Positions 8,567 through 57,825 of a DNA stretch of 64,000 bases are shown here, piece after piece. Both the position numbers and the translations under genes were made by a program. The DNA is taken from assembly GCF_015711475.1 (NCBI RefSeq), contig NZ_CP065027.1:2418001-2482000 (forward strand). Direction: 5' to 3'. The stretch is from Actinomyces trachealis. Lineage in GTDB: Bacteria > Actinomycetota > Actinomycetes > Actinomycetales > Actinomycetaceae. How positions within the stretch are numbered: the stretch's first letter is position 1; each line of letters starts with the position of its first letter. The notes beneath the pieces were generated by a model, which worked only from the letters and a program-made list of their open reading frames with translations, did no database searches and was not told where the DNA came from.

Positions 8567-10687
8567 GTGAGTATTGATACCAGCAAGTTTCCTGCTCTTG
8601 ATCTTGATGTGGAGACGATCCGGACCAATGCTTCGGATTTGAAGACCAAGGCAGGGAATATGCGCACCTCTGGGGCCTCGGTGAAGAGGACCTGGGGTGG
8701 TATGACCTCTTGTTATAAGGCCCCGGAGCAGGAGACTTTGTATGGGGCTATGAACAAGGTAGAGACGAGCAGTGACCACCTGGCGGGCAAGCTGGAAACT
8801 ATTGCAGACGCGCTTTCTGTCTTTGCTGACACCGCAGCGGGTATCAAGACTGACTCGCAGAACTTGAAGACTCGCGCGGAAGCGTTCCTGGTTTCTGTGG
8901 CATCAGACCCTGACTGGCAGTACGACCAGGGCAAGGTCGACAAGCATGACGGGTTCCTCAAAGAGGCTAACGCCTTGCAGGTGCGTATGTGGGAGGCTGA
9001 GCGCGCTTGCGCTAATAAGATACGCGCGCTTGACCTACTTGCTCCCTACCACGCGGACAAACAGAGCGCTAAGGACAACCTGGCCTACGGGGCCTCGACC
9101 ATAGCAGACCGGTCCATGGGCATGCCCTGGGGAGACCCGGTAGAGCGCAAGGACCGCTGCTACAAAAAGCCTTTCGTGTCCGTGTGGCGCGCCGTTTGGG
9201 ATGACGCAATCATGGGTACTATCAATGGCGTAACAGGATTGTTTGGCGTGCAGATTGATAATGTGCGCTTTACCCACCCGCAAGACCCGAACAGGATCGG
9301 CCAGTTCCCTGTGACTGCTGACGTAGACCACGGCTGGGACGTGCTATTCCAGTCCTGGCAGCCAATTATTGGGTTGATGGGAGTAAAATGGGATGAGTAC
9401 GGCCACCTCCTGGAAAGAAAACAAGAATACGAGACAGAAGCTTATGCCAACATCGGTAAAGGCCTGGCCCACGCCGACCAGTGGGACACCGACCCGCTAC
9501 GCGCAGGACTGGGAGTAGTTATTGACGTAGGCTCGTTGGTCGTCCCGGTACTGGGTGCCGCCAAGGTAGGAAAGAGCCTGTCTGCCGCTGGGAAAGCAGG
9601 CAAGGGCCTGAGCACAGCAAGAGGCTTTTCTGGTACCGCGAAGACTGCCGGGAATTCAGTGGCCAAGACCTCCAATAAGCTTACCAGCCCCCACCTGTCC
9701 CACACCCATGCCAGGATCACACACACGATCGACCCGGCCGAGCAGACCAGCAAGTGGGCAAAGACCACTAAGGTAGAAGCACCCCACCTGCCCCAGGGCC
9801 ACGCACACACCAACCCCTCCGACCTGTCGCACCCCAACACCCCCCGCAACCAGGCCGCTGAAGCAGCAAGGCCCAGCACAACCCGCCACCCAGAGAGCCC
9901 CAACACCCCGCACAGCCAAGCGCCACAGCCCGACCCCAAGACCCCTACTACCAACACGAACACCAAGACCTCCCCCGAGGCTAGCACCCCAACCCATAAC
10001 ACCACCCCCAAAGCAAACGACCACCAGCCCCACACCAACAGCACCAAGAACGAGACCACCACCGACAACACAACCCCCAAAACCGACAAAACCCCAGACC
10101 AACCCAACCACAACCCCACCCACACCCAACCCGACAACAAACACACCAACCAACACGACCACCCACACCAGCACACCCCAGACACCAACCACCCTGACAC
10201 CCAAACCGAACACACAAACACCCAGGAAACACACGCAGACAGTGACCCGGAGGCTGCCTACAACCCGCCCGTCACAAAGAACGGCCCAGAGAACAACTGG
10301 GGCACCTACGTGGACGAGAATGGGGTCGCTCACATCAGCCCAGACGATCCCCGCCCATACCTCAACCCCGACAACCGTCCTAGCTTCCGCAAGGGTGTCA
10401 TAGAAGCAGTCTGGAAAAGAGCACTAGAGCTAGCACGCAAGGATGGCTATGACTACGTAAGAGACCCTTTCAGTGATAAGAGAATAGACTGGAACCCCGG
10501 TGAGCCCAGGAACGGGGTCTGGGACATGGGTCATGTACCTACCCAACAGTACCGCGAGGTTTGGAGGAAGTACGTAAACGGCGAGATGACCCCCAAAGAG
10601 TTCCGCGACTGGTATAATGCTCCAGAGCACTACCGACCAGAACTCCCGTCTTCTAACCGCAGCCACAAGGCTGAGTCTATTCCCTGA
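8567..10687 (+). CDS. polymorphic toxin with WXG-like N-terminus and C-terminal GH-E nuclease domain
   Basis: 706 aa, GTG start with GGAG 7 bases upstream. Residues 1-115 are helical with a W-G-G motif at 43-45, as in ESX/LXG-type effectors. Residues 116-370 form a pre-toxin region with a hydrophobic Gly/Val stretch (about 313-333). Residues 371-571 are a Thr/Pro/Asn/His-rich linker. The C-terminal 135 residues carry NGVWDMGHVP (Gly655-His656), GEMTPKEFRDWY (Glu673) and PSSNRSHKAE (His700, Glu703), the conserved points of the GH-E branch of the HNH/EndoVII nuclease superfamily. It should be exported by a type VII system, encoded elsewhere, and attack nucleic acid in rival cells. Two immunity-like genes follow. 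Confidence 0.8.
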   Translation: MSIDTSKFPALDLDVETIRTNASDLKTKAGNMRTSGASVKRTWGGMTSCYKAPEQETLYGAMNKVETSSDHLAGKLETIADALSVFADTAAGIKTDSQNLKTRAEAFLVSVASDPDWQYDQGKVDKHDGFLKEANALQVRMWEAERACANKIRALDLLAPYHADKQSAKDNLAYGASTIADRSMGMPWGDPVERKDRCYKKPFVSVWRAVWDDAIMGTINGVTGLFGVQIDNVRFTHPQDPNRIGQFPVTADVDHGWDVLFQSWQPIIGLMGVKWDEYGHLLERKQEYETEAYANIGKGLAHADQWDTDPLRAGLGVVIDVGSLVVPVLGAAKVGKSLSAAGKAGKGLSTARGFSGTAKTAGNSVAKTSNKLTSPHLSHTHARITHTIDPAEQTSKWAKTTKVEAPHLPQGHAHTNPSDLSHPNTPRNQAAEAARPSTTRHPESPNTPHSQAPQPDPKTPTTNTNTKTSPEASTPTHNTTPKANDHQPHTNSTKNETTTDNTTPKTDKTPDQPNHNPTHTQPDNKHTNQHDHPHQHTPDTNHPDTQTEHTNTQETHADSDPEAAYNPPVTKNGPENNWGTYVDENGVAHISPDDPRPYLNPDNRPSFRKGVIEAVWKRALELARKDGYDYVRDPFSDKRIDWNPGEPRNGVWDMGHVPTQQYREVWRKYVNGEMTPKEFRDWYNAPEHYRPELPSSNRSHKAESIP

Positions 10688-19213: not shown

Positions 19214-20019
19214 AAGCCAAAGACTAGCCAATATGTTGGACGGTTCGGTGGTGGTTCAGGACAGCGGCGTGTGCCATTTGTTTTCCGGTGACAGCGGGAG
19301 AAGGGACATGCGTCCCGATCATACACATATATGTGACCAGGATCGCTTTTATGGTCTTGAAGGAGTCTTTCATCGCACAGCAAAAACCTTGCATTCTCCC
19401 AGGCTTGGAACGGTGGCAACAGAGACCCTCGAACACGTGCACCGGGCGCCGTTGTTACACGCTCAGCCCAAACCTTGCCTAGGTTTTCGGCGGTCAGTTC
19501 GGCTGCGTAACCCTACGCATCCATGCGAACCTTGATGCTGTGCTCGTCAAGGACGCCGAGCACCCCCAACAGCCTCTGGCCTACGGTGACAAGGATGTCC
19601 TCGTGGGCTAGAGGGAGGGAGTTTCTGAATCTGTCTAGCCCGTTACCCACTCTCGCCGCGGGTAACCAGCCTCTTGGTCTCCTGCTGGCACAGGATTCTG
19701 CACATGCGGCCAGCACCGGCGGGCCGCCCCAACAGCAGGGGCAAGGTTGAGACCGGGACCGCCCTGTGGGACAGGCCGTTGGCGAGGAGCGCACTTCCAA
19801 GCGGGTTCACAGGTTGGTTCGGGGTGTTCTCCCAGCTGGCAGTAGTTACATAGTTACTGCCGCCGGACGGAACGGGTTGCGAGGGTTGGGGAGCCCAATG
19901 ACCAGCCCGTCACCGAGACCAGCACAGGTACTAGGGAGCCTGGGATGGGCGTTCCGGCGAAGGAGGCAGCGCTCCACCTGGGTTTGGGAACCCCAGGGTG
20001 TGAGCCCCTCAACGACACT

Positions 20020-41903: not shown

Positions 41904-43258
41904 ACCGCTACGCCCCGCTGACCGGCCTGTCCCGCACCCCGATCAGCCGCCGCAGCTCCCTGGCCTTGGCCCTGGGCACCTCAGCCGCCTTCGCCCTGGC
42001 CGCCTGCTCAGACCCCGGAAGCAAAGGCTCCAAGGAGCAGACCGCCCCAGCAGATTGGCCCAAGGCCACGCACAAGCTGGACGGCGTCAAGCTGACGATC
42101 TGGGCCGCCCAGTCCTCCAACAAGATCCCCGCTAACGTGGCCAAGGGCTTTGAGGCCGCCACCGGCGCGAAGGTTGAGATCGTCACCATCCCTGACCCCT
42201 ACGAGCAGGGCGTGCAGACCAAGGTCGCCACCGGCGACATGCCCGACCTGGCCATGTGGCAACCCACCATGTCCCAGCTCACCTCCATCGGTGCCAAGGA
42301 GCGCCTGCAGGTGCTCGACGGCGCCCCCTGGGAGGCCAAGACCGTCAAGTCCGTCCTCGACGCCGGCGGCACGTTGGACGGGCACCGCTACGCAGCCTTC
42401 GTGTCCGCCCCCTCGGTCATGGGCGTCTGGTACAACAAGGAGGTCTTCGCGGCCAACAGTGTGACCGTGCCCAAGACCTTCACCGAGCTGCTGACCGTGG
42501 CCCGCGACCTCAAGTCCAAGGGCGTCACCCCCCTGCACGAGATGGGGGGTGAGTGGTGGGCCTCCCAGTGGACGGTCCAGGCCTACCTGGCCGATGCCGC
42601 CAAGGCCGGCCTGTGGGACAAGGTCAACCAGAACCAGGACCAGTTCACCGGCAAGGACATTCAGGGCGCTATCGACCAGTACCAGGCCATGATCGAGGAG
42701 GGCCTGTACAACGCGGACATCAAGACCGCCACCTTTGACGAGCAGGCCAAGGCCGTGCTGGAGGGCAAGGCGGCCATGGCGATCCAAGTGAACAGCCTGC
42801 TGGCCAACATGGCAGCCCAGACCAACCCCGCCACCCTGGACCAGAAGATCGGCTTCTTCCCGATCTCCGCGACCTCCGCCACCGCCACCTCCATCCCGGA
42901 GCAGACCAACGCCGTCGTTGCTTTCAAGACCGGTGACGCTAAGCGTGAGGCGGCCTCCCGCCAGTTCCTGGTGTACTGGCTGTCGGACGGCTACGCGGAC
43001 TTCGTCAAGGACCAGCACCTGGTGTCCATCATCAACGGCGTAGCCACCCCAGACTCGGTGCCGACGGCGATCCAGGAGGCCTACAAGGCACTCGACGGCG
43101 CCGTCGGTTCCATGCAGTCCCTGGCCGTAGCCAACCCGGACCTGGCCAAGAACCTGGGCGACATGATCGCGGGTACCAAGACTGCGGCCCAGGTGGGCGA
43201 GGAGACGCAGACACAGTTCGCCCAGCTGGCTAAAGCGATCGGCGCCAAGGGGTTCTAA
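41900..43258 (+). CDS. ABC sugar importer, substrate-binding lipoprotein
   Basis: 452 aa. N-terminus with SRRSS and a hydrophobic stretch ending in lipobox L-A-A-C (Cys36). The mature part, VKLTIWAAQSSNKIPANVAKGFE through MGVWYNKEVF, belongs to solute-binding family 1 (CUT1 type). It should deliver an oligosaccharide, probably an alpha-galactoside, to the two permeases that follow. Start overlaps the GH36 stop. Confidence 0.93.
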   Translation: MNRYAPLTGLSRTPISRRSSLALALGTSAAFALAACSDPGSKGSKEQTAPADWPKATHKLDGVKLTIWAAQSSNKIPANVAKGFEAATGAKVEIVTIPDPYEQGVQTKVATGDMPDLAMWQPTMSQLTSIGAKERLQVLDGAPWEAKTVKSVLDAGGTLDGHRYAAFVSAPSVMGVWYNKEVFAANSVTVPKTFTELLTVARDLKSKGVTPLHEMGGEWWASQWTVQAYLADAAKAGLWDKVNQNQDQFTGKDIQGAIDQYQAMIEEGLYNADIKTATFDEQAKAVLEGKAAMAIQVNSLLANMAAQTNPATLDQKIGFFPISATSATATSIPEQTNAVVAFKTGDAKREAASRQFLVYWLSDGYADFVKDQHLVSIINGVATPDSVPTAIQEAYKALDGAVGSMQSLAVANPDLAKNLGDMIAGTKTAAQVGEETQTQFAQLAKAIGAKGF

Positions 43259-51599: not shown

Positions 51600-51739
51600 C
51601 TCCCGGGAGACTCGGCCAGCCGGGTCCAGCAGATGGGGTAGCTGACTAAATCCTCCAATCGGGGGAGCCAGTCGACTGATACGTCGGCGGCCGCCCGTCA
51701 GGAGAATCAGAACCTGATTCCCCAACCCTAGGAGCCGCA

Positions 51740-52135
51740 ATGAGCCTGACCACCGCCGCACACATATGCCTGGGCCTCGTCGCCGCCGGGGCCCTCGCGG
51801 CCCTCAGCCTGCTGATCTCCCGCCGCTACCACCGCAACACGGGCCTGGGGGAGGACCTGCCCAATGACCAGCTCGTGCGGTTCTTCTCCTCCCTGAGCCG
51901 TTCAACCCTAGTGGTGACACTGTGCTCCATGGCCGCCATCGTCCTGCTGGCGGTCACCGCTCCCCTCCTTGAGACCACGCAGATCACCATCTGCATGATC
52001 GCCATCGCGGCTGTCGAGCTGCTCCTGGGCTGGCTTAGCGGGCAGGCCGCCTGCTACGCCGCGATTGCCCGCCAGCGCCGCCTTGAGATCAGCGCCACCC
52101 GTTGGGAACGTCTTATGGCTACCGGTCGCCTGTGA
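51740..52135 (+). CDS. small three-helix membrane protein
   Basis: 131 aa, ATG 51740 with AGGAG upstream. Three hydrophobic segments (near 8-27, 57-77 and 82-102) separated by a polar loop (YHRNTGLGEDLPNDQ), then a basic C-terminus. No family recognised. First gene of the ABC/two-component cluster; 76 bases before the ATPase gene. Confidence 0.6.
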   Translation: MSLTTAAHICLGLVAAGALAALSLLISRRYHRNTGLGEDLPNDQLVRFFSSLSRSTLVVTLCSMAAIVLLAVTAPLLETTQITICMIAIAAVELLLGWLSGQAACYAAIARQRRLEISATRWERLMATGRL

Positions 52136-52211: not shown

Positions 52212-52940
52212 ATGACGACGCCCCTGCTCAAGGTCGACGCGGTCACCAAAACCTACAAGTTGACCACCGCCATCAAGGACATCCACCTGACGGTCACCCC
52301 CGGCCAGTCCCTCGGTCTTCTGGGCCCTAACGGTGCTGGCAAGACTACGACCCTGTGCACGATCCAGGGCGCCGTCCGCCCCAGCGCCGGAACCGTGTCC
52401 CTCTTTGGCCACCACCCGCTCTCCCTGCCTGACGCTGCCCGCCACGTCGGCTTCGCCTTTGACGGGACCGGCCTACCCACCTCCCACAGCGTGCATAACC
52501 ACCTGATCAACCACCGCCTTGCCAACGGACTGTCCCACCGCGAGATTGAGGAGATCACGGAAGAGTTCGAGCTCGGTCCCCTGTTGCAACGCCGCATCAA
52601 GGACCTGTCAACCGGTGAGCACAAGCGTGTCAGCCTTGCTACCGCCATGGCTGGCCGCCCCCAGCTGCTCATCCTCGACGAGCCCACCAACGGACTGGAC
52701 GTTGGGGGCGCCCATTGGCTGCGTAAAAAGCTCCTCGCCTACATCCGCGGTGGCGGCGCGCTCCTCATCTCCAGCCACATTCTCTCCGAGGTCGCGCGCA
52801 TCGTCGACAGTGTCCTCGTGATCAAGCGGAGCATCCTGTTTGACGGGCCCCTCGCCGACCTACAGCAGCACGGCGGCCCCACCCTTGAGGACGCCTACCT
52901 AAATCTCGTCAGCCCGAACCGAAAGAGCGCCGCAGCATGA
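52212..52940 (+). CDS. ABC transporter ATP-binding protein
   Basis: 242 aa from ATG 52212. Walker A GPNGAGKT (38-45), signature LSTGEHKRVSLA, Walker B LLILDEPTNGLD and the switch histidine in ISSHIL. Of the type that powers ABC-2 exporters. Overlaps the permease start (ATGA). Confidence 0.93.
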   Translation: MTTPLLKVDAVTKTYKLTTAIKDIHLTVTPGQSLGLLGPNGAGKTTTLCTIQGAVRPSAGTVSLFGHHPLSLPDAARHVGFAFDGTGLPTSHSVHNHLINHRLANGLSHREIEEITEEFELGPLLQRRIKDLSTGEHKRVSLATAMAGRPQLLILDEPTNGLDVGGAHWLRKKLLAYIRGGGALLISSHILSEVARIVDSVLVIKRSILFDGPLADLQQHGGPTLEDAYLNLVSPNRKSAAA

Positions 52941-53794
52941 CCACCTCGACCTTCGCAACCACCGCAGCAAAGCACGCCCCGCAGGCCTCCGCTCGCGCAC
53001 GCACCCACGCTGAGGCCCCGCGGAGTAGCGGGCTGCGCACCCTGAGCGTCATCGCCTCCCTGACCCGGCGCGGCATGACGGACCGCACCTGGCTGTGGTT
53101 CGCCCTCACCGGCGTCGCCCTGGGAGCCTTCACCACCGTCATTGACTCAAGTACCTTCCTTGAGACGATCGACACCCGCAACCAGGCTGCCGTTGACGCC
53201 GTTGCCCTGCGTCTCCTGCGCCTCGGTTTCGCCCTGCTGCTGGTGTCTGCCCTGTGGGGCGCCACCCAGGTCACCTCCGAGTTTCGCGACGGCACCGTCG
53301 CCGGACGCGTCAACGAGCACCGCGGGATCGGCCGCCTGGTGTGCGGCCACGCCCTCGCTTCACTACCCATGGGGCTCGTATTCGGCCTCATCGGCGTGCT
53401 CAGCGCCGGAGTGCCCACCTGGTTCATCCTGCGGAGCAAGGGCCTAACCCCCACGCTGGACGGGGAGGTTCTGACCACCGCCCTCGGCATCGTGGCCGTC
53501 ACCGCCCTGGCCGCACCCTGGGGTACCTGCTTCGGTTGGGTGATCCGTAGGGCGCTCCCTGCGAGCCTCGTCCTCATTGTGTGGGCCATGTTCATCGAGC
53601 CAGCGCTCGTGCCCGCTCTGCCCAAGGATGCTGGCCAGTACCTGCCTGGTGGTCTCCAGCTCACCCTCATCCACGACGCCACCGCCGTAGGTTCCACGCC
53701 CATCACGCTCGCTGCGGCTCTCCTGGTTGCATGGGTGGCTGTGGCTGGCGTCATTGCAACCATCGCGACTCGAAAGGGTGACCTACGTGTCTGA
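52937..53794 (+). CDS. ABC-2-type transporter permease
   Basis: 285 aa. About 40 polar residues, then six hydrophobic helices; the stretch ALWGATQVTSEFRDGTVAGRV between helices 2 and 3 is typical of ABC-2 permeases of the NatB/YhgE-like kind. Forms an exporter with the preceding ATPase. Overlaps the next small gene by 8 bases. Confidence 0.88.
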   Translation: MTTSTFATTAAKHAPQASARARTHAEAPRSSGLRTLSVIASLTRRGMTDRTWLWFALTGVALGAFTTVIDSSTFLETIDTRNQAAVDAVALRLLRLGFALLLVSALWGATQVTSEFRDGTVAGRVNEHRGIGRLVCGHALASLPMGLVFGLIGVLSAGVPTWFILRSKGLTPTLDGEVLTTALGIVAVTALAAPWGTCFGWVIRRALPASLVLIVWAMFIEPALVPALPKDAGQYLPGGLQLTLIHDATAVGSTPITLAAALLVAWVAVAGVIATIATRKGDLRV

Positions 53795-53966
53795 CGCCGC
53801 CCTTGCCTCGTTGCGCCACTACCAGATCGTCCTGGGGGCCGACGAGGAGGAGACGGAGACCACCAACTTGCTAGCTCTTTACGCTGGCAACGGTGCGCAG
53901 CACTACCAGGCCATCAGCGCCTGGGACGACTCAGAGATTGACACCATCCTTGAGTTCCTCTCTTAG
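53787..53966 (+). CDS. 59-aa acidic small protein coupled to the ABC exporter
   Basis: GTG 53787 lies inside the end of the permease gene, with GAAAGGG upstream. The product is acidic and soluble (GADEEETETTNLLALYAG ... WDDSEIDTILEFL), no Cys, no signal. Too few landmarks for a family. Position between an exporter and a two-component system makes a peptide precursor or a regulator of the exporter possible. Confidence 0.5.
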   Translation: MSDAALASLRHYQIVLGADEEETETTNLLALYAGNGAQHYQAISAWDDSEIDTILEFLS

Positions 53967-54096
53967 CGTTGAACTGAGTGAGCTGGGCATGCGCACTGTT
54001 TTCCAGAGGTCTCGCCCCTTGGAGGTACTACCTGGCCACGCCAATGTCATCCTTGGCGCCGTGCGCCCTGACCACTCCACCTACCAAGGAGCGCCC

Positions 54097-54210
54097 ATGG
54101 CGCACGTCACCAGGCTGCCCCACCTCTGTCCTCTAGAACATGATTCATCCGCTACCGTGGCACTGAGCACCAAGCTGAGGGGAGAGCCGTGGAGGCTGAC
54201 AGCCGCCTGA
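54097..54210 (+). CDS. possible 37-aa leader peptide overlapping the kinase start
   Basis: ATG 54097 has an excellent AAGGAG five bases upstream and runs 37 codons (MAHVTRLPHLCPLEHD...) to a TGA at 54208, past the histidine-kinase GTG at 54189. It may serve mainly to couple translation to the kinase gene. No family. Confidence 0.35.
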   Translation: MAHVTRLPHLCPLEHDSSATVALSTKLRGEPWRLTAA

Positions 54211-55376
54211 TGTCCCACCCATTGGCCGCGCTGTGGCACGCGGAGCCCCTGACTGCCCTGGGGCTGGCTATGGGCGTGGTTGGGATGGTGGTCGGGGTCG
54301 CGCTCGCACCCTCCGAGGGACCCTGGTGGCTGGGGTGGGTGATCTCCGGTGGTGGACTCGTCCTGCTCACCGCGATGCCTTGGCGTCCTCTGCCCGCTGC
54401 TGCCGCTTACCTCTTTGGGTGGGTCATCGTGCTTGCTCTTGTCCCCTCCCACGCCGGTGTCCTGCTAGTCACGAGCCTGGGTTTCCTGCTGCTTGTGAGT
54501 CGGCTCCTGCCGGTCGGTACGACGGCCATCCTCGCTGGTGTCTTCTACTCCACGCACCTGATAGAGGTGATTACGCTGCAAGCGGGGGAGAAGGTCTTTT
54601 TCACCAACCTGCTCTATGGGATCCTTGTGATTCCCGTGGGTGTGCTCTGGCGCAGGCGGGTGCAAGAGCGTCGGGTGGAGGGGGTGCGGGCCGCCGCACG
54701 CCTGGAAGCCATGCGCACCGACATCGCCCGCCAGATGCACGACCTAGTCGCCTACTCCATGTCCCACACCGCCCTACGCGCCCAACACGCCGCCCACAAC
54801 CCCAACCACACCCCCCAAGCCCGCACCGAGTTCGCCGCCATCGCCTCCAACGCCACCGACGCCCTCCACGAGCTACGCCTCCTCCTACGCACCCTGCGCC
54901 ACACCACCCCCACCACCCAAGACATCGCCACCACCACCGGACTAGGCGGCGTAGTAACCAACCTACCCGCCGCCATCCAAGCCATCGCCGACGACATCAC
55001 CGCCGCCGGATTCACCCTCACCTACCGCTGCCTAGGCAACACCACCCCCACCCGCCTACAAGCCACCACCATGTCCCGCGTAGCCCGCGAAATGGGCGCC
55101 AACATCATCCGCCACGCCGCCCCAAACGCCCCCGTCACCCTCACCCTCACCCTCAACCCCAACATCATCCGCCTAGTCACCACCAACAAGACCACCACCC
55201 ACAAAACCACCCACCTACCCACCAGCGGAACCGGCACCACCGGCATGCGCGAACACCTCGCACCCCTCAACGGCACCCTAACCACCCTCAACGAAAACAA
55301 CTCCTGGATCACCACCGCCACCATCCCCACCAACAACCAACCCACACCCCCCACCACCCCAAAAGAGGCACGATGA
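54189..55376 (+). CDS. NarL-type sensor histidine kinase
   Basis: 395 aa, GTG start with GGGGAGA upstream. Five to six membrane helices (about 20-155) without a large extracytoplasmic domain, then a HisKA_3 domain with His184 in ARQMHDLVAYSMS, and an ATPase domain (EMGANIIRHA N-box; GTGTTGMREHL G-box). Small intramembrane sensors of this type often watch an ABC exporter or a peptide. From about 54700 the coding strand becomes strongly A/C-rich, with CAA, CTA and GTA codons that are rare elsewhere here. Overlaps the response regulator (ATGA). Confidence 0.9.
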   Translation: MEADSRLMSHPLAALWHAEPLTALGLAMGVVGMVVGVALAPSEGPWWLGWVISGGGLVLLTAMPWRPLPAAAAYLFGWVIVLALVPSHAGVLLVTSLGFLLLVSRLLPVGTTAILAGVFYSTHLIEVITLQAGEKVFFTNLLYGILVIPVGVLWRRRVQERRVEGVRAAARLEAMRTDIARQMHDLVAYSMSHTALRAQHAAHNPNHTPQARTEFAAIASNATDALHELRLLLRTLRHTTPTTQDIATTTGLGGVVTNLPAAIQAIADDITAAGFTLTYRCLGNTTPTRLQATTMSRVAREMGANIIRHAAPNAPVTLTLTLNPNIIRLVTTNKTTTHKTTHLPTSGTGTTGMREHLAPLNGTLTTLNENNSWITTATIPTNNQPTPPTTPKEAR

Positions 55377-56053
55377 TTCACGTCGGTATCGCTGATGACG
55401 ACGCCCTCGTCCGCCTCGCGTTGTCGGACCTGCTGGCCACCACGGAGGATATTCGTGTGGCCTGGACCGCGCACGACGGCGTCGAGGCTCTCGAGCAGAT
55501 CCGGGACGAGCACACGACGCCGGTGCAGGTGGTCCTGCTGGACATCCAGATGCCCCGCATGGACGGGATCGCCCTGGCCGAGACCCTCCACGAGCAGCAC
55601 CGTGACCTTGCGATCCTGGTACTGACAACCTTCGTGGCTGACGCCGTACTAGAGCGGGCCCTGGCCGCCGGGGTCCGCGGTTTCATAGCCAAAGAGGACC
55701 CGATCGAGGAGCTAGCCGCCACCATCCGGCACGTCGCGGCGGGAAACATGGTGCTCTCGGCGACGTCCTCCGCGATCATCGGGGGAAGGCCGAATATCCC
55801 GACGTTCAACGTCTCCCCGACGGCCCAGCCCAGCCCCGCGCCAGGTGCCCTACCTCCGGGCGTGAGCCTCTCACCGCGCGAGCTGGAGGTCCTGGCACTC
55901 ATGGTTGAGGCCCTGTCAAACAAGCAGATCGCCCACCGCCTCCACCTGTCTGAGGCAACGGTCAAGACGCACGTGTCCACGCTAATAGCCAAGCTCGGCG
56001 TCCAGGACCGTGTGGGGGCGGTCGTCCACGCGCTGCGCAGCGGCCTGGTCTGA
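55373..56053 (+). CDS. NarL/FixJ-family response regulator
   Basis: 226 aa. Receiver domain with phosphoacceptor Asp57 (VVLLDIQMPRMDG), Asp8-10 acidic pocket and Lys in FIAKEDP; then a linker and a LuxR-type HTH (LSPRELEVLALMVEALSNKQIAHRLHLSEATVKTHVSTLIAKL). Partner of the preceding kinase. Likely targets are the adjacent ABC genes and possibly the short transcription unit just downstream. Confidence 0.95.
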   Translation: MIHVGIADDDALVRLALSDLLATTEDIRVAWTAHDGVEALEQIRDEHTTPVQVVLLDIQMPRMDGIALAETLHEQHRDLAILVLTTFVADAVLERALAAGVRGFIAKEDPIEELAATIRHVAAGNMVLSATSSAIIGGRPNIPTFNVSPTAQPSPAPGALPPGVSLSPRELEVLALMVEALSNKQIAHRLHLSEATVKTHVSTLIAKLGVQDRVGAVVHALRSGLV

Positions 56054-56083
56054 CCGGTCTGGCCAACCGATCTACCTTATCTG

Positions 56084-56112
56084 TTGATGCCGCACGCCGG
56101 GAAAGGTATTAT
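56084..56112 (+). promoter_or_regulatory. strong promoter of the short aromatic-rich transcription unit
   Basis: TTGATG (56084-56089), exactly 17 bases, TATTAT (56107-56112): the best sigma-70-like promoter in the window. Transcription should begin near 56119, 34 bases before ATG 56153. Confidence 0.75.
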
Positions 56113-56152
56113 TAGTTCCTGTCAGCGACGCTACACATTGAAAGGTCAACAC

Positions 56153-56218
56153 ATGCCCCGATTCTCATTCCTCCCTCTCTCCGGTAAGTTTCGTGCCTGG
56201 TGGGCCTTCTGGCTCTGA
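56153..56218 (+). CDS. 21-aa Trp/Phe-rich leader-type peptide
   Basis: ATG 56153 with GAAAGG eight bases upstream. The peptide has Phe at 4, 6, 13 and 19 and Trp at 16, 17 and 20, ending RAWWAFWL. Aromatic codon runs, a strong promoter, and downstream RNA structures recall amino-acid leader peptides (trpL/pheL); a WW-containing C-terminus also recalls short streptococcal pheromones. There is no downstream gene on this strand for 1.6 kb, so it is an orphan. Confidence 0.6.
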   Translation: MPRFSFLPLSGKFRAWWAFWL

Positions 56219-56267
56219 GGTAGACAAGAACTCTCACCGCAGCACTGAACCAGACCTGACCAACTGG

Positions 56268-56308
56268 GCCCCGCTGGTGCCCCACCATCTGGTGGAAGCA
56301 CGCGGGGC
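56268..56308. terminator. long hairpin ending the short unit and facing cycA
   Basis: GCCCCGC (56268-56274) pairs with GCGGGGC (56302-56308); inside it GTGC pairs with GCAC, and CCACCA (56282-56287) with TGGTGG (56290-56295). Upstream, ACCAGA (56249-56254) can instead pair with TCTGGT (56288-56293), an alternative fold that would break the inner stem. It may also end cycA transcription from the other side. Confidence 0.7.
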
Positions 56309-56361
56309 TCAGTGCGCGCTAGTTTCAAGGCCGCTCCAGCAGCCGGGAGCACCCGTGCGGT

Positions 56362-57825
56362 CTAGCGGGAGGAAGCGCCAGCCCGCCGCCCCAGGTGACG
56401 GGTATGCACCCACCAGGCCACCCCCAGCACCAGCAGCCACAGCGGTGAAGTCAGGACCGCCAGGCGCGTGTCCTCGGCCAGCGTCAGCGTCCAGGTCACG
56501 AAACCAAAGAACACCAGGCTCAGCCAGGCAGAGGCCCGCCCCCCGGGCACTTTGAAGGCACTGTGCGCGTGCCGCTCAGGCCGCAGCCGCCGGTAGCGCA
56601 GGTAGGAGGCCACGATCACGCACCACACCAGGATGAACAGCACGCTGGCTACCGTGGTTACGGCGGTGAAGGCCGCGATGATCGACTCAGAGACGTACAT
56701 CAACGGGATAGCGGTCAGCAGGCCCGCACAGGTCACCAGCAGCGCCCAACCAGGCACTGCCCGGGCGGTGAGCCGCCTGAAGGCCTTGGGGCCCTGCCCG
56801 GCCCAGGCCAGCCCGTAGAGCATCCTGGAGGTGGAGTAGATGCCAGAGTTGGCGGAGGAAGCCGCCGCCGTCAGCACCACAAAGTTGACCATCCCGGCCG
56901 CCACCCCCAGGCCGGCCAGGGAGAACATGGCCACGAATGGGCTGTTCTCGGGGGAGACCTCCCGCCAGGGGGTGACCATCATAATGGCCGCGAGCGCCCC
57001 CAGGTAGAAGATCACGATCCGCATGGGGATCGCGTTGATGGCCTTGGGCAGGGTGACCTCCGGGTCCTTGGCCTCGGCTGCCGCGGTGCCGATCAGCTCG
57101 GTCCCCACGAAGGCGAACACGGCGATCTGGAAGGCCCCGGCGAAGCCGTGGAAGCCGTTGGGGAATAGCCCACCGTCGCGCCACAGGTTGGAGACGGCGG
57201 CGTGGGAGCCGTTGGGGGCGGTAAAGCCGGTGAGCACCATGGTCACGCCCATCACCATCAGCGCGATGATCGCCACGATCTTGATGATCGAGAACCAGAA
57301 CTCGATCTCCCCGAAGGCTTTGACGGTGGTGAGGTTCAGTCCGAGCAGCAGGAGCACCGTGACCACAGGCGGGATCCACAGGGGGATGTCGGGCAGCCAG
57401 AACTGCACGTACCCGGTTATGACCACCACCTCGGCGATCGCGGTGACCAGCCAGCAGAAGTAGTAGGTCCATCCGGTCATGAATCCGGCCCAGGGTCCTA
57501 TCAGGTCGGTGGCCACGTCAGCGAAAGACTTGTAGCGCAGGTCGGACAGCAGCACCTCACCGAGGGCGCGCATCACGAAGAACAGGAACAGGCCGATGAT
57601 CGCGTAGACGAGCAGCACCCCAGGCCCGGCCAGGTAGATGGTCTTGCCGGAGCCCATGAACAGGCCGGTGCCGATGGCCCCGCCGATGGCGATCAGCTGG
57701 ACGTGCCGGTTGGTCAGACGGCGTTGCAGGCCTTCGTCCTCTATCCCGGTCACGAGCTGGTCGACGGCGTCGGGGGCGGCCGGGTTCACGGGGTGGTCAG
57801 GGATCTCGTGGCTAGGCCGGTTCAT
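56362..57825 (-). CDS. cycA: D-serine/D-alanine/glycine transporter
   Basis: 487 aa from ATG 57825, with GAGGAG six bases upstream. APC-superfamily permease, 12 helices. The opening TNRHVQLIAIGGAIGTGLFMGSG is general to the family, but YKSFADVATDLIGPWAGFMTGWTYYFCW, ATVK/TTVKAFGEIEFWFSIIKIVAI and VGTELIGTAAAEAKDPEVTLPKAIN follow E. coli CycA very closely. Imports glycine and small D-amino acids. Divergent from the DUF2079 gene. Confidence 0.9.
   Translation of the reverse strand: MNRPSHEIPDHPVNPAAPDAVDQLVTGIEDEGLQRRLTNRHVQLIAIGGAIGTGLFMGSGKTIYLAGPGVLLVYAIIGLFLFFVMRALGEVLLSDLRYKSFADVATDLIGPWAGFMTGWTYYFCWLVTAIAEVVVITGYVQFWLPDIPLWIPPVVTVLLLLGLNLTTVKAFGEIEFWFSIIKIVAIIALMVMGVTMVLTGFTAPNGSHAAVSNLWRDGGLFPNGFHGFAGAFQIAVFAFVGTELIGTAAAEAKDPEVTLPKAINAIPMRIVIFYLGALAAIMMVTPWREVSPENSPFVAMFSLAGLGVAAGMVNFVVLTAAASSANSGIYSTSRMLYGLAWAGQGPKAFRRLTARAVPGWALLVTCAGLLTAIPLMYVSESIIAAFTAVTTVASVLFILVWCVIVASYLRYRRLRPERHAHSAFKVPGGRASAWLSLVFFGFVTWTLTLAEDTRLAVLTSPLWLLVLGVAWWVHTRHLGRRAGASSR

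Follow-up and report, generated by a model that had tools for sequence, protein, structure and literature searches.

A family of short Trp-rich peptide genes tied to one sensor kinase and response regulator in Actinomyces: candidate self-made ligands of the adjacent kinase

The ComX-ComP-ComA (ComQXPA) system of Bacillus joins a HisKA_3 membrane kinase, a LuxR/NarL-type regulator and a hypervariable linked peptide. ComX is made as a precursor of about 55–70 aa and carries a Trp near its C-terminus, and its specificity groups are reflected in both the peptide and the sensor. In agr- and comX-type systems in general, sensor replacement is found beside changing peptides. The streptococcal SHP/Rgg and ComS/ComR systems use WW-type pheromones, very short Trp-rich peptides that are received by a cytoplasmic Rgg or ComR protein and of which some are linked to RiPP genes.

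The locus of Actinomyces trachealis described here resembles ComQXPA in its HisKA_3 membrane kinase, its LuxR/NarL-type regulator, its hypervariable linked peptide and the Trp near the C-terminus of that peptide. It differs from ComQXPA in the genus, in the length of the ORFs (14–29 aa instead of about 55–70), in the box and in the surroundings, as no ComQ-like isoprenyl transferase domain was found among the neighbouring proteins scanned. With SHP/Rgg and ComS/ComR it shares very short, Trp-rich peptides, some of them linked to RiPP genes, but the adjoining gene pair encodes a HisKA_3 kinase and a Response_reg/GerE regulator. A short ORF rich in Trp codons followed by a hairpin is also the mark of trp attenuators and of rnTrpL/peTrpL of S. 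meliloti, from which the locus is set apart by the lack of a downstream trp gene, the lack of a conserved alternative pairing and a location apart from a candidate WWW leader. As for MgrB and SafA, a small peptide would act on a kinase whose own regulator presumably controls the peptide gene; here, the sequence is hypervariable and Trp-rich. Finally, a daptide-type methyltransferase is tied to the module, a feature shared with the daptide RiPPs (mpa; PMC10036551, PMC12338566), but the Actinomyces peptide lacks the C-terminal Thr substrate residue, and just 3 of 49 genomes have a daptide aminotransferase above cut-off. The main texts of these two papers contain neither "Actinomyces" nor "histidine kinase", and their daptide passages link no two-component regulator or signal to daptides. 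A literature search of titles and abstract openings, mostly outside the subscription literature, returned no peptide pheromone or quorum-sensing system of this kind in Actinomyces.

The window, i.e., the whole stretch of 64,000 nucleotides that was analysed, contains the following features around the peptide gene:

51657–51682, + strand: palindrome AATCGGGGGAGCCAGTCGACTGATAC, 5' of the transporter operon (20.9 bits, top site of the window)
51740–52135, + strand: small membrane-protein-like ORF of 131 aa (by eye), the first after the box, with an A. weissii orthologue
52212–52940, + strand: ABC transporter ATPase (best NCBIfam match: lantibiotic protection ABC ATPase, below cut-off)
52937–53794, + strand: ABC permease-like membrane protein, judged by position and look, with an orthologous ORF in A. 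weissii
53865–54075, + strand: two remnants of a daptide-type methyltransferase, N- and C-terminal, the middle missing (tblastn 2.7e-6 and 3.9e-4)
54189–55376, + strand: sensor histidine kinase with HisKA_3 (Pfam, 4.7e-10) and a hydrophobic N-terminal sensor, supported by alignment
55373–56053, + strand: NarL/LuxR-type response regulator (Response_reg 1.4e-22, GerE 2.9e-19)
56065–56090, + strand: presumed box of the peptide gene, weak here and placed by its position in A. weissii; its right end overlaps the -35 region
56084–56112, + strand: promoter-like TTGATG-17-TATTAT (sigma-70-type motif scan)
56140–56145, + strand: ribosome-binding site GAAAGG, 7 nt 5' of the ATG
56153–56218, + strand: peptide gene MPRFSFLPLSGKFRAWWAFWL (A. 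weissii comparison and a family in 30 of 36 loci)
56263–56313, + strand: long GC-rich hairpin 3' of the peptide, a possible transcript end without a U-run (-38.0 kcal/mol)

The regulator gene overlaps the kinase gene, and the peptide ORF starts 99 nt past the regulator stop. Its 21 codons include three Trp and four Phe, as the preliminary description of this DNA had stated. The promoter and the good ribosome-binding site named there were likewise found: TTGATG stands at 56084, is followed by a 17-nt spacer and by TATTAT ending at 56112, and is the sole sigma-70-type match in 55900–56500 (mean of 0.1 in shuffles), while GAAAGG occupies 56140–56145. A similar ribosome-binding site precedes the peptides of many relatives. 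Promoters 5' of these peptides are suggested by visual inspection alone, and a strict count of TAnnnT for the -10 hexamer gave 1 of 30 loci, the window's own. The hairpin that had been described was recovered at 56263–56313 but not the terminator, as the scan returned no intrinsic terminator at the element and a U-run is absent. Hairpins of -14 kcal/mol or lower lie within 110 nt 3' of the peptide at 24 of 30 loci, a count made without a shuffle control. On the whole, the element has the look of a single-gene unit that encodes a peptide of 21 residues. Rfam at gathering thresholds gave no match at the site of the peptide gene; elsewhere in the window, at 19856–19965 (+), the Actinomyces-1 RNA RF02928 was strongly matched with 105.9 bits.

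No gene follows the peptide on its strand, where the amino-acid permease gene converges, as had been noted before; the arrangement in A. weissii is the same. The 6-mers proposed to form mutually exclusive pairings do exist (56249, 56282, 56288, 56198, and 56290), but at least as many complementary 6-mer pairs were obtained in 42 of 300 mononucleotide shuffles, and ACCAGA, CCACCA, and TCTGGT are missing from the A. weissii leader. The leader from 56118 to 56330 folds modestly better than shuffles (z -1.80; 12 of 200 equally good). Attenuator folding was rejected, since the pairings are neither conserved nor above chance, and with no downstream gene the claimed amino-acid attenuator architecture is not supported. 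The peptide gene, as a family, is beyond chance; the attenuator folds are not.

At the DNA level, the element was found in two of the 49 genus genomes, namely its own, where it occurs as one copy, and that of A. weissii, the nearest relative found. Conservation of the reading frame had been put forward as a check, and the A. weissii peptide MARYSSLFPLFGDFHAWWAFWL retains the start, the stop and the C-terminal AWWAFWL of MPRFSFLPLSGKFRAWWAFWL with one extra codon. A DNA pattern for AWW-x-FW occurred family-wide at 23 places in 19 of 213 genomes, 21 of these places being outside the own genome and A. weissii.

The peptide family is wider by position, behind regulator orthologues, than by DNA match. 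The survey covered 36 regulator copies, 35 from 31 genus genomes and one from an A. oris plasmid. An ORF of 12–35 aa with at least two Trp, preceded by a ribosome-binding site and starting no more than 300 nt downstream of the regulator, was found behind 24 of them. Among the controls, such an ORF occurred on one of the 36 reverse strands, in 25 of 1080 sequences shuffled by dinucleotide and behind none of 23 paralogous regulators. On these three controls, a chance ORF was rejected for the family as a whole. Six weaker cases, which have no control, bring the total to 30 of 36 loci: one-Trp ORFs at L005, L081, and the second copy of L069, and three ORFs that the filter missed and that were added by eye (L067, L075, and L090), two of which resemble the peptides of close relatives. 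No recognisable peptide was present at L084, L087, L088, and L089. In the tandem regulator pairs of L080 and L082, the first regulator of each has a peptide and the second has none. Locus L070 encodes two peptides in tandem. As to whether the peptide stays beside the two-component genes, it holds the same place behind the regulator across species.

The 30 peptides are hypervariable, with 14–29 aa and 1–4 Trp. All 30 have a Trp among their last eight residues and 21 have one among the last three; the Trp content is given by construction, as the peptides were selected for Trp, which does not apply to the C-terminal placement, although this has no control. Net charge (K+R-D-E) ranges from -1 to +4 and is +1 in 13 of 30. 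In 11 non-independent pairs, 30 synonymous and 65 non-synonymous codon substitutions were counted, and these counts show most peptide residues to be under seemingly little constraint. Indels in multiples of three are expected between ORFs of the same start and stop and were not counted as evidence. A cleavable signal sequence was not seen in the peptide. Taken by position and controls, this appears to be a real family of Trp-rich micro-peptides tied to one kinase-regulator pair in the genus.

A Gibbs search of the intervals that separate the regulator stop from the peptide start revealed the palindrome gATCGGccgAgCCGatcGGccGATgC, 62–83 nt 5' of the peptide start. As the search forces one box per sequence, its presence in 30 of 30 is given by construction and leave-one-out scores are the actual test; 26 of the 30 boxes scored 13 bits or more, a number inflated by close relatives. 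At the peptide-less loci L084, L087, L088, and L089, no box above 13 bits was found within 400 nt after the regulator. With a model from which the window and A. weissii sites had been omitted, 51657–51682 was the best of 127,950 scored sites in the window. This box lies 57 nt 5' of the first gene of the series that extends to the kinase and the regulator. No other site in the 2.53-Mb genome fits a simplified pattern with one mismatch or none, the pattern being hand-made from the 30 boxes, those of the window and A. weissii included; two mismatches are too loose genome-wide (18 matches in the own genome vs. 21 in the reversed control). In A. weissii, boxes with at most one mismatch comprise an overlapping pair 5' of the orthologous small membrane gene and the daptide genes and a single one before the peptide, and the box marks the start of both the daptide RiPP region and the peptide gene there. 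In several relatives, a box was likewise found 5' of an ABC gene, of the methyltransferase or of the small membrane ORF; its distance from the last is 37–57 nt in six loci including that of the window. We infer that the regulator binds these palindromes.

The box of the peptide gene itself scores 6.5 bits in the window (rank 11 of 127,950) vs. 24.9 bits in A. weissii. The abandoned leader suggested earlier does not fit the family, but because of this weak palindrome some decay of the peptide unit in its own genome is possible. Other box-like sites of the window are at 43215 (-, 13.3 bits) and 13907 (-, 10.9 bits). An extra perfect box in genome G010 was set aside, as it is located at the end of an apparent glutamate dehydrogenase gene.

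The regulator orthologues form a clade with 53–94% identity to that of the window, the next matches reaching at most 46%. The clade is present in 31 of the 49 genus genomes and in none of 164 other genomes of the bacterial family (E <= 1e-45). Across 24 kinases, mean identity is 0.34 in the sensor half and 0.62 in the kinase half. Identity before the H-box was compared with that of control kinases of the same genus, whose paralogous regulators lack a peptide of this kind; one rule was applied to both sets, the pairs are non-independent, and seven kinases of odd frame length were excluded, which left 24 peptide-bearing ones. It was 0.32 vs. 0.61 at a kinase identity of 0.6–0.7 (control n=11), 0.59 vs. 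0.93 at 0.8–0.9 (control n=1) and 0.78 vs. 0.96 above 0.9 (control n=3). The outcome with 29 kinases, five of them peptide-less, was the same.

With kinase similarity partialled out, peptides and sensors still vary together in similarity (partial Mantel r = 0.43, p = 0.0002), a correlation carried by the closer pairs (r = 0.08 below a kinase identity of 0.8). For L069, L074, and L075, kinase identities of 0.89–0.92 are accompanied by sensor identities of 0.44–0.56 and peptide similarities of 0.16–0.31. L067 and L073 vs. L078 are a counterexample, with sensors at 0.54–0.59 and peptides at 0.75–0.77. The second kinase copy of A. weissii has the same kinase start as the first and a different sensor. 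The tandem kinases of A. weissii lie at L008 3403–6534, and the reading frame of the second does not continue into the remainder of its kinase domain. Such sensor replacement beside changing peptides resembles agr- and comX-type systems and would suit a signal for the neighbouring kinase.

Upstream of the kinase, the window retains the small membrane gene and the ABC transporter. The former is 84% identical to its A. weissii orthologue and has distant relatives (about 24–29% identity) at the same place in several species. The ATPase start at 52212 was set by comparison with A. weissii, and no Pfam or NCBIfam match was obtained for the permease-like protein (52937–53794). The two methyltransferase remnants mark an eroded RiPP region between the transporter and the kinase; the biosynthetic genes are gone, whereas small membrane gene, transporter, kinase, regulator and peptide were retained.

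A. weissii has a RiPP region of daptide type between its two boxes. It encodes a daptide precursor-like ORF ending in Thr (VALT; 22.6 bits vs. a cut-off of 25), a LanKC-like protein (below cut-off), an ABC transporter, an HExxH protease-like protein (291.7 vs. 300), a methyltransferase and an aminotransferase of daptide type (both above cut-off), a protein like the daptide dehydrogenase (188 vs. 300) and a YcaO-like protein; the order ends with the kinases, the regulator and the peptide. A second small precursor-like ORF, ending in LGLCALVAII, precedes the ABC transporter at about 8680–8845 of the A. weissii locus L092 and shows weak similarity to daptide models. The record of the A. oris plasmid lists mpaM and mpaD next to this kinase and regulator, and two or three further genomes have daptide gene sets like those of A. 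weissii and A. oris. The Actinomyces peptide itself was rejected as a daptide precursor; a C-terminal Thr occurs in none of the 30 peptides.

Among the 29 peptide-bearing loci, 23 have a methyltransferase of the daptide family and 5 an aminotransferase, counted in limited stretches of which some are ended by contig ends (two stretches were combined for A. weissii). An ABC ATPase lies in the surveyed stretch of 9 of the 29, ABC genes being common. The daptide-type methyltransferase model NF041820 gave 24 matches in 21 of the 49 genus genomes (E <= 1e-15). All 24 lie within 6 kb of the regulator, and all 21 genomes are among the 31 with the regulator (hypergeometric 1.1e-6, kinship ignored). The methyltransferase exceeds the curated cut-off in 7 of the 49 genomes and the daptide aminotransferase in 3, with genome G002 just below; most methyltransferase-bearing genomes are without a daptide aminotransferase. 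Lower or partial methyltransferase scores (84 bits at L074, 27 bits at L005) may point to lost or changed activity.

Considering these results together, 56153–56218 on balance probably encodes a peptide that the cell makes as a ligand for its own neighbouring sensor kinase; a secreted, autoinducing pheromone is the likeliest form. The earlier idea of a WW-type signalling peptide controlled by the neighbouring two-component system gains from the conserved position, the shared palindrome and the hypervariable peptides with their fast-evolving sensors. Expression, secretion, sensing, and modification of the peptide are inferred from sequence comparison. The phosphorylated regulator would bind the palindrome that reaches into the -35 region and would activate the peptide gene and linked genes alike. 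For A. weissii, A. oris and two or three others, these targets would be a daptide RiPP region; most genomes with a daptide-type methyltransferase have it without the daptide aminotransferase. In the own genome, the targets would be only the small membrane protein and the ABC transporter, as the biosynthetic genes are eroded and the rest resembles an immunity-and-sensing remnant. The peptide would then be exported and bind to the sensor in the membrane, which would complete a positive loop.

Because the methyltransferase is linked to the regulator module, the peptide itself might be modified. We tentatively consider, as a possibility with rather less than an even chance, that the Trp-rich peptides of 14–29 residues are micro-RiPP pheromones, N-methylated by the stand-alone daptide-type methyltransferase before signalling to the HisKA_3/NarL kinase-regulator pair beside them. 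This is suggested by the proximity of 24 of 24 NF041820 matches to the regulator although the aminotransferase exceeds its cut-off in only three genomes. Daptide clusters would then have been recruited into, or derived from, a pre-existing peptide-signalling module.

If the kinase-ligand reading is true, a widespread, species-specific peptide signalling system would be present in Actinomyces, a genus of oral and animal-associated bacteria. It would supply daptide clusters with a regulator and an inducer, and silent RiPP clusters might be switched on by synthetic inducers. It would also account for the many genomes in which the methyltransferase has no daptide aminotransferase as a partner. Peptide genes of this size are usually omitted by annotation.

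Alternatively, the aromatic peptide, induced by the regulator, could stay in the cell or the membrane and act on its kinase there in the manner of MgrB or SafA, without secretion. Regulator control and a fast-evolving sensor are predicted equally by such feedback, and the peptides are short and aromatic with no export signal seen. The high sequence turnover between species, however, is more typical of exchanged signals, and 9 of 29 peptide loci have an ABC ATPase in their stretch, albeit that ABC genes are common. We regard such feedback as unlikely. Somewhat less probable again is an effector, i.e., a Trp-rich antimicrobial, bacteriocin or RiPP core that is induced by the two-component system and is not a signal. 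While the Trp/Arg-rich members resemble indolicidin or tritrpticin, two peptides stand in tandem at L070, and RiPP genes and a lantibiotic-protection-like ABC ATPase are nearby, the net charge runs from -1 to +4 (+1 in 13 of 30), a separate daptide-precursor-like ORF with a terminal Thr is present in the A. weissii cluster, and the diversification of the sensor domain would be left unexplained.

A chance ORF in a decaying intergenic region would agree with the eroded surroundings and the weak box of the own genome. It is very improbable in view of the family-wide position and Trp enrichment and of A. weissii, which shares the start, the stop and the terminal AWWAFWL.

Least probable is a cis attenuator or a trans-acting leader RNA or peptide of trp type: a Trp/Phe-rich ORF with a good ribosome-binding site and a hairpin behind it is what such a leader would look like, but a downstream gene is absent, the alternative pairings are neither conserved nor above chance, and the methyltransferase behind the peptide has its own box in some relatives. 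The trans-acting variant put forward earlier is unlikely because the peptide family tracks the kinase and regulator and because a TrpE/PabB-type gene elsewhere (G000:C1:679107) has its own candidate WWW leader VTTLSSRSWWWLP with a hairpin, which was read by eye and has no ribosome-binding site by the filter used.

Before this TrpE/PabB-type gene, a candidate trp attenuator was noted at L006:522–720 (G000:C1, about 678.1–678.3 kb), with a GTG/TTG start, a peptide ending in RSWWWLP and a hairpin.
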